Positions 24,775-38,340 of a stretch of DNA of 64,000 nucleotides are shown here, piece by piece (the first letter of the stretch is position 1; each line of letters begins with the position of its first letter). A model generated the notes under the pieces. That model did no database searches and was not told the origin of the DNA. It saw only the letters and a program-made list of their open reading frames with translations. The position numbers and the translations under genes were made by a program. The stretch is from Saprolegnia diclina VS20 (Eukaryota; Oomycota; Saprolegniomycetes; Saprolegniales; Saprolegniaceae), in the NCBI RefSeq assembly GCF_000281045.1, contig NW_008246074.1:896433-960432 (forward strand), given 5' to 3'.

Positions 24775-26736
24775 ATGCTGCGAGCAAGTGTGGGGCGCCT
24801 GCGCGGGTTTGCCGACGCCAAGCCGCCGACGCTCATGTCGGACGTCCATGGCACGGTGCATGGCAAGAAGGCGTGGCGCAACCAGCCGCTCTTTCGCCGC
24901 GAAGGCGACAAGAAGTTTCGGTCCGGCGCCGAAGCTGCCGTCATGCTGTACGTTCACATGTGCGTGTCCAGCACGATGCAGATGGTGGCGCATGTAGGTA
25001 CGAAGAGGCCACGCGGCGCGACCCGTACCAGACCGAGTACGTGGCGATCGTCGACGTCCTTGTCGTTGCACGAGGAAGCAACGGCGATGTAGGTTTTTGG
25101 ACGCTGTCCAGAGCTTTGTGCACTCGGTGACGCCCGTCTTGGACCGGTATCCCAAGTACGCGTGGGTCATGAAGCAGCTCATGGAGCCCGAGCGCGTCAT
25201 CCAGGTATCGCCCATCACGGAGTGGCAAGGACCCATCATGGTTGTCCTGCGTAGTTTCGCGTGCCCTGGATCGACGACCAAGGCAGTCGCCGTGTCAACC
25301 GCGGGTTCCGCGTTCAGTTTTCGAGCTGCTGCGGTAGCCCTTTCCTTCGAACGTGACGCGACTCATGGGTGGTCTAGGGCCGTACATTGGCGGGCTACGC
25401 TTCCACGGCGACTGCCGCCACGGGACAGTCAAGTTTCTCGCGTTTGAAAATGTGTTTCGCAATGCAGTCTACGGACCGTTTGGGGCCGCGGCCGGCGGCG
25501 CCGACTTTAGCCCGCTCGACAAAAGCGAGGCTGAGATCATGCGGTTTTGCCAAAGCTACATGACGGAGCTCGCCAACTACATTGGTCCGGCCTCGGACAT
25601 TCCGACGGGCGGCGTCAACGTCGGACCCAAGGAGATGGGCTACATGTTTGGGCAGTACAAGCGCCTGCGACAAATGCACCCCGCGGTACGCGCCACCGCA
25701 TATATGCCGGTGCGATGCTGACATGGAAACAGGGCGTCGACGGTGTCCTCGGTGGCCACTCGTTTCCGCAGATCACGGGCTACGGCATTGCGCATTTTGC
25801 CAAGATCCTCGTGGAAGACGCCAAGGAGTCGTTGGTTGGGAAGCGCTGCCTCGTCTCGGGCTCGGGCACCGTCGCCTTGCACACAGCCGAAAAGCTCCTC
25901 GACCTCGGCGCGATTCCCATTGGCTTTAGCGACGTCTGGGGCCACGTCATTGAGCCAGAGGGTACATGACCCATACGTGTACGATGTAGCTCATGACGAA
26001 GGAAGGGTTCTCCAAGGCGCAGCTGCAGACGCTCAAGGACATCAAGTCGGAGCACACGGCGCGCCTCGGCGGCTACATCATGACGTCGACCAGCGCCAAG
26101 TACTACCCGTCGGAAGAGACGTCGTTCTGGGACCACCCGTGCGACTACGCATTTCCGTGCGCGATGCAATACGACATCAACGGTTAGCTGATACATAGCG
26201 TACGATGACAATATGTGTATATGTCTAGATGTGTCGGCCAAGAAGCTCGTCAAGAACGGCTGCAAGGGCGTCTTTGAAGGCGCGCACTTGCCGTGCACCC
26301 CCGAGGTACGACGCCACCGCGTATGTCGACTGTCAAAAAGGACATGTTGTCTGCGCAGGCCATCAAGACGTTCCAGCAGCACAACGTGATCTTTGCTCCG
26401 TGCAAAGCCACAAACGGCGCCGCGGTACGTTGATGCTCTGCGACGACAGCGTCTCTGGACGTTGCTGCATAGCTGGCGCTGCATCTCAAGGGCGTTGCGG
26501 GACGAAGCGACTTGGCGCTCGACGACGTCGACGCGATCGCGCAAGGTCCGTCTTGGACTTTGGTTTTGAAAAAACGAGGTTGATAGATTGATACTGTAGA
26601 GTGCATGCAAAAGGTATTCAAGTCCATTTCGGCGACCGCGGTCGAATTCAACTGCGTCGGCAACTGGCACACGGCGACCAACATGACGGGCTTTCTCAAA
26701 GTCGCGCAAGCCATGTTCCGCCAAGGTGTTGTCTAA
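24775..26736 (+). CDS. Glutamate dehydrogenase-family protein with replaced active-site residues
   Basis: Eleven exons: 24775-24947, 24998-25036, 25093-25204, 25255-25333, 25378-25685, 25733-25961, 26006-26182, 26229-26305, 26359-26424, 26473-26545, 26600-26736; 489 residues. The whole length follows hexameric NADP-type GDH: DPYQTEFLDAVQSF, GLRFHGDC, KFLAFENVFRN, EIMRFCQSYMTEL, GYMFGQYK, a Rossmann loop LVSGSGTVALHTAE and the end TNMTGFLKVAQAM. The residues that do the chemistry are changed. The Lys of GPYKGG is I138, the Lys of FEQAFK is R162, the catalytic Lys of GGAKGG is A173, and the Asp of PAGDIG is G213. The frame is intact through eleven exons, so this is not a decayed pseudogene. It may bind a different substrate or act without catalysis. 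Its stop overlaps the stop of the opposite gene. Confidence 0.85.
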
Positions 26737-35700: not shown

Positions 35701-38340
35701 AGGTGGTGCAGAGGTCGTCGTAGAGGATACCAACGCAAATGTCGAGCGGGAGCGTCTGCACCGCTGCCTACGAGTGGCCATCGTCCATACAAAGGTTACG
35801 AAAACGACGACGTACCTGGACGAGGTGCAGCTGGGACGCCACTGTCTCTAGCAAGACGCGCGTGCATAGCTCGACGCTGAATTGCGTTGTCGTCGCGGTA
35901 CTCGCCACGTGCGATGCGAGGTACTGCTCCATGCGGCCATCGAGCTCCCAGGGAAACCGAGGGTCCACGAGCACTTGGCGCAGATGTTTGGTGCCAAGTA
36001 GGTCCCAGCGGTCGTCCGTCACGACGGCAGGATGGACCGTGACGGTACCAGCCGCCATGTTGACGGCCGTGACGGTGTACGTGTCACCATCGAGTGACAA
36101 AGAATCGCCCGGCGAGAGCTGCCAGTGGCTAAAGCGCGCCTGCGTCTACGTCAAGAATGAATCGATCACGTCATATGCAAGATATGCCGCGTACCATAGC
36201 GCTATGGCTGCAACGAAGCGTGTCGGGTGGGCAAAGCACCGTGAGTGTGCCGGCGCACACAAGGGCTACGTCGACGCGCCGGTGGTGCAAGCTGAGAGCA
36301 CTGCCGTGTCCAATGTTGGCTGCACTCAGTCGTGTTGTGATCGGCAGTATCGTATGCGGGGTTGACAGGACGCACACGTCGTGGGTCGACGCAGCGTCGA
36401 TCCCATGCTACGTGAGAAGAATGGACAATGTGTCATCCTCGAATCTCGAGAGGCAACAGTACCTCGCATCGCAGCGCGTCCAGAACGTCCTGCAGCGTTG
36501 TCGAAACGGTGGCACGTACGTCGACGGTGAGCACGGCAGACGGAATGTCCACCTATCGACAACTTATGGTGAAGCATTTTGCAAAGGTGACGAGTACGTG
36601 GAGTGTGAGCGTGCAGTGCGTGCGCGGGGGCGACGCCGCGGCCCGTTGCCGCCGCGCTTCGTCGCGCTTTTCGATATCGCGGTCCATGTCCGAGATCTCG
36701 TGGGGGAAGAGCCAATTATAGTGTTTGTCTATCGCAGTTGGCACAAACACATGGTGACGCGTCTCTTGTCGCGTCTGCAACTGAATATCAATGCGACGCG
36801 GCGGCGAGATACACCACGGGCGCCGACTTGGCTCCAGCGCACGTCCAAGGATGCTGCCGCGATACAGGAACGCATACGGCTGCGGTACTTTCTATAACAT
36901 AACAAAGTAGAACAAAGTGTCCCTACGACAGCTTGTACCGGCAGGTCGAGAAGCAACCGACGGACGTCGGCATACGAGCTAGCTGCCGTGAGATCGACGG
37001 AAGCCACAATGGTGTCGGTGCCGTGTATACCGACCAGATGCAACGATGGCGACGCGTCGCAGTGCGGCGCTGCGATTCGCAGGAGCGGCTGCAGTCGCGC
37101 CACGTAAGCGTCGAGTAGCGCCGGCTGCGCTCGCATCGACCGCCCGTCGGCAGCGTGTAGTGTGTGCGTGAGCACTGGCCCGCTTGTCGACCAGAGCGTG
37201 ATGGTCGTGTCGTTCGAACTGTGTAGGCGCACCAGGTAGACACGTCCGCCCATTCCCACCGCCCGTCGGACAGCAGGGTGACAACTATGCGCAGTCGGCA
37301 GCTCCAGTGGCCTACGGCAGCGCCGATGCTGCAGCAGTAGCTGGAGCAACCAAAAGCTCAGTTGCGCCATACCAAGGCTCTCTCGCAGTAGGACACTGGG
37401 GAGCCATGCGGTCTCGCCAAGCAAGGTGGCCGCGATCTCTGTCAGCGCACTCGGTAACATTTGATCCGAAGCGCGCAGTCGGTGCAGGAGCACGCGTGGT
37501 GGGGTCTCGTAGAAGCTCATGCCGACAAGGGATGTGATGGCGTCCGTCACACAGTGCAAGCCACGGGGCGGGTGGACGACCGCTTGGATCTGGGCTATCG
37601 CTGCAGGGGAGAGCGCGTTAAGCGCGTGGTCGAGAAGACCCTTCGTCGGTATGACATGCTCCACCGCGTCCTTTGTACACGGCGGCTGCCAGCCCAATAG
37701 AAAGTCCGCGTCTTGCAAGAGACTGTCAGCCGCCGCTTTGTAGCAACCGGCCACGGCCTCGAGCTCGCACGATACAAAAAATGGGTTGGGTGGCGTCGAT
37801 ATGTTGAGAAGCGCGTGGACGTCCAAGGTTTCACGGGCTAGAAGGGTTAGGTACGGCGCGCCCTGCCATCGAAAGCTCGGTGTTGCGGGGGCTCTGGCGT
37901 GCGCCGCCGTCTCGCGTTTGGCCGCGCGCCATTCGAGAAGCGTGAGCACGGCAGTGTTGGTTGCGTCACCGAGGCGTCTCGCCAACTCGCTGGTGGCGGT
38001 CGGTCGGTCGACCTTTGACGCCTCGCGACAGAGAAGACGCATCTCTTGCACTAGGTCGGCGCGTGATAAAATGGCTTTGACAACGCGGCTCTCGGCGACG
38101 GCGATGGCGTGCGTGGCGCTATGCTTGCGCAGTGGGGCCAAGACCGCTGGTGGTTTCTTGAGCTTGCGCTTGTAGCGGGCTGCATATGGCGATGACTTGG
38201 CCACCTCGGGCAATGCGAGCGCCACGTAATCGCGCAGCATCGACTAGAACACACGCATGTATGGCGAGCAACAGTACTTTTCGACGGCGTACCGGCTTGG
38301 GCGGGGAGGATACACAGGACGTCGGGGGCAGCGCGCTCAT
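26733..38340 (-). CDS. Giant modular protein: repeated WW-like, IQ and TPR-like blocks
   Basis: One reading path crosses about 38 exons joined by introns mostly of 38-65 nt (one is about 78), giving roughly 3,300 residues. It starts at ATG 38340 (exon 38340-38293, then 38243 on). The N-terminal third has no named domain until IQ-like segments appear (VRLQATHRGYR, IRLQALWRCYAQRR). From about 33.7 kb leftward, blocks recur. Each has a beta-rich segment ending in an aromatic-Trp pair, then a WW-like strand such as YDATSNLTYWTPP or YNTKTERYRWHLP, then an IQ motif like RRLQ-RLYRRYVR, then TPR-like helices (DDVDRAETCFLQAQTLAPSD, RLDVAERVYSTSLL). Two blocks share TPNEPLV and two share NYxAFR. IQ motifs bind calmodulin or EF-hand light chains; WW domains bind Pro-rich ligands. 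A large scaffold is inferred. Some internal junctions (near 28.4, 31.0, 34.4 kb) are uncertain. Confidence 0.7.

Follow-up and report, generated by a model that had tools for sequence, protein, structure and literature searches.

A predicted giant gene of Saprolegnia diclina with tandem cassettes of WW-like, IQ-like and TPR-like parts, a candidate calmodulin-binding scaffold

The stretch analysed here, a window of 64,000 nucleotides from the water mould Saprolegnia diclina VS20 (contig NW_008246074.1, positions 896,433 to 960,432), carries on its minus strand a reading path that runs from an ATG at 38340 to a stop at 26733 and comprises 38 exons encoding 3290 amino acids. The path corresponds to the NCBI protein SDRG_03171 (P0001, 2944 residues, "hypothetical"), all 2944 residues of which place exactly in the window, and is identical to it downstream of the NCBI start methionine. 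An earlier note, made from the DNA letters alone, had proposed one minus-strand path of about 38 exons over 26733..38340, and the spliced mapping of SDRG_03171, together with homology to the S. parasitica protein SPRG_01657, recovered the same span and exon count. Upstream of the NCBI start, the same exon stays open for 329 residues, giving a spliced mapping of 37 exons and 3273 residues. SPRG_01657 (P0002, 869 residues), found with residues 150-1300 as query, is 73% identical to residues 2-849 of this 37-exon model and thereby supports the N-terminal extension missing from the NCBI model. Its N-terminus also matches a first exon of 16 residues absent from that model (38293..38340, minus); the match of these 48 nucleotides to the first SPRG_01657 residues was equalled by 1 of 5000 shuffles, and a 49-nucleotide GT-AG intron comes next. 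Judged by this homologue, the NCBI start (methionine at 37253 instead of 38340) lies 346 residues too late, within an exon 2 (36939..38243, minus) that encodes the N-terminal region and is likewise placed by identity to SPRG_01657; the public model is corrected at this end.

The introns are of the GT-AG type and 38-68 nucleotides long, and in the 37-exon model keeping the frame requires the removal of 35 of 36 of them. In the same model the coding frame outscores both other sense frames in every one of the 37 exons; in three of them (exons 22, 28, and 30 when counted in the 38-exon model) the best antisense frame scores higher. The gene finder returned no gene above 20 bits in any of 30 dinucleotide shuffles, nor on the plus strand. 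The 3273-residue protein is very basic (isoelectric point 10.0, 371 kDa). SPRG_01657 is without 16 residues present in exon 3 of S. diclina (36598-36891, minus), where an extra 48-nucleotide intron is possible. Both introns flanking exon 9 (58 nucleotides; 34435-34542, minus) have weak donors, and exon 8 could alternatively be joined straight to exon 10 through a 110-nucleotide intron; a test of a beta-motif repeat from exon 8 toward exon 10, meant to decide between the two, was not significant (equalled by 439 of 5000 shuffles for the direct join and by 321 for the NCBI splice). A convergent plus-strand gene model (24775-26736) overlaps the end of the gene by 4 bases.

In the N-terminal third, the last part of exon 3 through to exon 5 (36288..36603, minus) encodes a candidate ubiquitin-like, beta-grasp domain; its Pfam match to YukD, a ubiquitin-like family, is weak (E 0.04) and, at 15.1 bits, falls short of the cut-off of 27. 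Further downstream, a putative tandem pair of IQ-like motifs (LQATHRGYRAF and LQALWRCYAQRRRY; 35168..35332, minus) spans intron 7|8 and reaches only 6.8 bits (E 9) against the Pfam IQ family. Its two glutamines lie 23 residues apart, the spacing found in myosin-type IQ arrays. An AlphaFold model of the N-terminal part (P0002 plus five window exons) had a mean predicted local distance difference test score of 34 and was not used.

The continuity of this N-terminal third with the remainder of the path bears on whether the locus holds one gene or several. The second-pass gene finder, for which the window's own genes, this locus included, served as training set, predicted one minus-strand gene (38240..26733) in five of six settings; a run with too low an intron penalty, which merged most of the window, was set aside. 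It is unlikely, in our estimation, that there are instead two or more genes, namely an N-terminal gene of exons 1-7 resembling SPRG_01657 plus a distinct gene for the repeats, or still more pieces, although several observations weigh in that direction. The cruder first-pass gene finder placed two genes at the locus, the second pass did so in one of its six settings, and training strictly outside the locus yielded two, three, and four genes at intron penalties of 9, 11, and 13, respectively, the split at penalty 9 giving 38240..35291 and 34600..26733. Moreover, SPRG_01657 terminates within exon 7 with an unmatched tail, exon 7, with intron 7|8 retained, runs into a stop at its own donor site (open frame 35291..35767), and the donors score weakly at 7|8 (1.5) and 8|9 (1.4; 38-exon numbering). 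On the other hand, the parts are joined in SDRG_03171, the joining of exons 7 and 8 creates the regularly spaced IQ-like pair, the unmatched final residues of SPRG_01657 are what a frame shift or a wrong splice would give, and donors just as weak are seen within the repeats, where homologous WW introns score 2.3 (16|17 and 20|21).

In the single-gene model, the last two thirds of the protein consist of a cassette of WW-like hairpin, IQ-like helix, and TPR array, present in eight copies and followed by a truncated ninth. Exon a of the cassette ends in [F/Y]W; exon b, which has LQ at its end, starts with a sequence like YN..T....YW..P; exon c starts with a sequence like RWxRR; and exon d encodes about 115 residues of TPR-like helices. 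The WW-like hairpin thereby falls at a|b and the IQ-like helix at b|c. All units lie on the minus strand, and each of the first eight scored higher against a profile built from the others (leave-one-out score in bits below) than any of 2000 shuffles. The WW part is degenerate in unit 1 (33362..34388, exons 10-12; 22.3 bits) and lost or degenerate in unit 2 (32540..33316, exons 13-15; 61.6 bits). Unit 3 (31574..32501, exons 16-19; 12.1 bits) has the WW-like FFWVHAPTGQRVW, the IQ-like LQTWCRVWTQRR, and TPR helices, and unit 4 (30802..31529, exons 20-21; 18.0 bits) the WW-like FWYNTKTERYRWHLP, the IQ-like LQAWYRRSWAR, and TPR helices. The WW-like part of unit 5 (29870..30758, exons 22-25; 9.7 bits) has lost its second tryptophan, and unit 6 (28958..29818, exons 26-28; 28.7 bits) holds the lone intron 27|28. 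Unit 7 (27978..28913, exons 29-32; 54.0 bits) combines the WW-like YWYDATSNLTYWTPP, the IQ-like LQRLYRRYVR, and TPR helices; unit 8 (27036..27935, exons 33-36; 64.8 bits) combines the WW-like FWYNRLRARAYWRLP, the IQ-like LQRSMRRW, and TPR helices. The ninth unit (26733..26984, exons 37-38), truncated after the WW-like hairpin, shows the same phase-2 intron in a tryptophan codon and stood outside the leave-one-out test.

When placed by eye from their flanking residues, 27 of the 28 introns of the repeat region occupy homologous positions at four places, 27|28 being the exception. The six phase-2 introns among them all split the same tryptophan codon (16|17, 20|21, 22|23, 29|30, 33|34, and 37|38), seven directly follow the place of the IQ glutamine (10|11, 13|14, 17|18, 23|24, 26|27, 30|31, and 34|35, with an alanine where glutamine is expected at 26|27), six separate exons c and d, and eight lie at the end of exon d. 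Exons a and b are fused in units 1, 2, and 6 and exons b, c, and d in unit 4, as intron loss would give. Across the 37-exon model, with its 36 introns, phases 0:1:2 number 28:0:8, against 31:16:15 in the other confident models of the window, and since the cassette is bounded by phase-0 introns, tandem duplication of the exon block preserves the reading frame. Long nucleotide repeats are absent from the gene, and the duplicated protein words listed in the earlier note (TPNEPLV, NYxAFR, VHxxTGQ, and DVAER/DRAET) are all present.

The eight units exceeded not only their 2000 shuffles, which were of the same composition, but also all 15 N-terminal windows used as a second control. Divided by part, with the cuts within fused exons placed by hand, the TPR portion alone was exceeded by none of 2000 shuffles in any of the eight units, and the WW portion with exons b and c, which includes the IQ-like helix, by at most 7 of 2000 in seven, unit 3 not being significant (368 of 2000); of 36 N-terminal windows, six reached unit 3 and one reached unit 6 in this test. 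When the whole of the variable exon a was included with b and c, five units remained at or below 2 of 2000, and units 4, 1, and 3 stood at 80, 122, and 1938, with 34 of 35 N-terminal windows reaching unit 3 and one reaching unit 4. Identity of the units to unit 1 is 18-22%, so that the duplications look old. This low value, about 20%, and the failure of unit 3 when its WW-IQ part is tested by itself could be read as meaning that the blocks share only what any series of TPR-like, arginine-rich helices would show. We consider such an explanation highly improbable, since all eight units beat the two controls, the only ones used, and the 27 shared intron places speak strongly against it; chance similarity between blocks was ruled out by the leave-one-out profiles, the tests by part, and the intron places. 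Growth of the gene by tandem duplication of exon blocks, as proposed in the earlier note, is thus well supported, and the intron places preserve a record of duplication at about 20% protein identity.

Profile searches supported the assignment of the cassette parts as WW-like, IQ-like, and TPR, the identities suggested earlier, with the WW and IQ elements being degenerate and below Pfam cut-offs and a single TPR passing narrowly. That match, to TPR_2, scores 27.3 bits against a cut-off of 27, and the unit profile aligns with the consensus TPR at E 1.6e-9. Pfam searches with whole units gave weak matches only (best E 0.013), and a Foldseek search with the model of exon 21 found nothing at E 0.001 or better, its best matches being TPR domains (E 0.45). 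For WW (PF00397), no match at E up to 10 was obtained in a 3186-residue model or in seven WW-IQ segments, and the tryptophans are lost in several units. A profile of the second-half hairpin anchored on the introns nevertheless matched 12 PDB chains, eight of which we recognise as WW chains (best E 0.024), as against none for the one match of a reversed control. A six-frame WW search of the S. diclina genome (103 matches, 150 candidates scored) listed none in this gene, which is uninformative because introns split most of the hairpins. The IQ family (PF00612, cut-off 20.3 bits) stayed below its cut-off, the best match (E 0.13) falling in one of the seven WW-IQ segments. The order WW-like then IQ-like is kept in units 3, 4, 5, 7, and 8.

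From this domain composition, the protein is probably a large, potentially Ca2+-responsive scaffold, and calmodulin binding can reasonably be predicted for it. The TPR blocks would form solenoid pieces holding partner proteins, calmodulin or calmodulin-like light chains would bind to the intervening IQ helices, and Ca2+ could then alter the stiffness of the chain or the exposure of its binding faces, as in IQGAP or myosin necks, with the WW-like hairpins either binding proline-rich peptides or merely capping each block. The cassettes could also be real and their WW and IQ parts mere structural relics within one long alpha-solenoid that binds neither proline-rich peptides nor calmodulin, a tentative alternative to which we grant clearly less than an even chance; the sub-cut-off WW and IQ scores, the missing tryptophans, and the better conservation between units of the TPR part than of exon a fit it, whereas in seven of the eight units an [LV]Q with basic residues after it occupies the aligned position, and this, like the myosin-like spacing of the N-terminal IQ-like pair, argues against it. 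We hold it an even call that the locus is a single 38-exon gene for a 3290-residue, very basic putative scaffold made of the N-terminal third, eight WW-IQ-TPR cassettes, and the truncated ninth, and working in the way first outlined above. That an undescribed WW-IQ-TPR composite repeat has been amplified in tandem in one Saprolegnia gene into a Ca2+-tunable giant scaffold seems to us slightly short of an even prospect; the IQ-like motifs named above are candidate calmodulin-binding sites in a water mould.

Other features of the window include, on the plus strand, a tandem pair of gamma-glutamyl cyclotransferase/AIG2-like genes (6222-7055 and 7725-8540) and an IFT80-like gene of intraflagellar transport (44930-47560, with the Pfam match on the open frame 46764-47612). 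The minus strand carries a single-exon gene for a protein kinase with a PH domain (41565-44369), a gene for a glutamine-rich protein with weak, below-cut-off Med15/KIX matches (52807-54534), and an open frame of 1186 residues without a Pfam match at E 0.01 (58286-61843). Rfam found no match in the window.

Protein searches of 5.8 billion sequences recovered only SDRG_03171, the one protein obtained with the 3186-residue model as query, and SPRG_01657 and, at their low sensitivity, no relative outside Saprolegnia. Each search scored about 8000 candidates that shared most of 100 short words with the query and fell within a length range, so that relatives below about half identity, by our estimate, could be missed. 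With the last 1094 residues as query, none of 7994 candidates reached E 0.01, and these low-sensitivity searches did not recover the C-terminal portion of the S. parasitica gene. No paper naming this architecture, SDRG_03171, or SPRG_01657 was found in the published literature searched, which, together with the protein searches and within the limited sensitivity of both, agrees with the earlier statement that no described family with this plan is known. The genus is already known for unusual architectures, the S. parasitica genome paper reporting 169 species-specific domain combinations (PMC3681718).

Among known systems, TPR solenoid proteins such as O-GlcNAc transferase, subunits of the APC/C, and PEX5 share TPR helices with the units described here; by contrast, the cassette repeated here intersperses its TPR blocks with WW-like and IQ-like elements. 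In profile searches the hairpin has some of its best matches in WW domains of the Prp40/FBP11 type; Prp40 carries FF domains, whereas Pfam finds none here, and the hairpins are degenerate, six of them being split by a phase-2 intron. The nearest known analogue is IQGAP, a scaffold in which a WW domain precedes calmodulin-binding IQ motifs (PMC12479253), as the WW-like element precedes the IQ-like element here. IQGAP, however, has one WW domain and four IQ motifs in a single set, not a repeated cassette; TPRs are not among the domains which that source lists, and the family possesses calponin-homology and RasGAP-related domains, whereas Pfam finds only TPR families here at E up to 10; on the predicted protein, membership in the IQGAP family fails on the calponin-homology and RasGAP domains. 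The mode of growth recalls the leucine-rich repeat genes of Tetrahymena, which consist of 90-bp exons with phase-2 introns and grew as their phase-matched exons were clonally duplicated (PMC6564038). There the repeat is a single exon, whereas here phase-matched exon duplication appears to have amplified a multi-domain, four-exon composite cassette.
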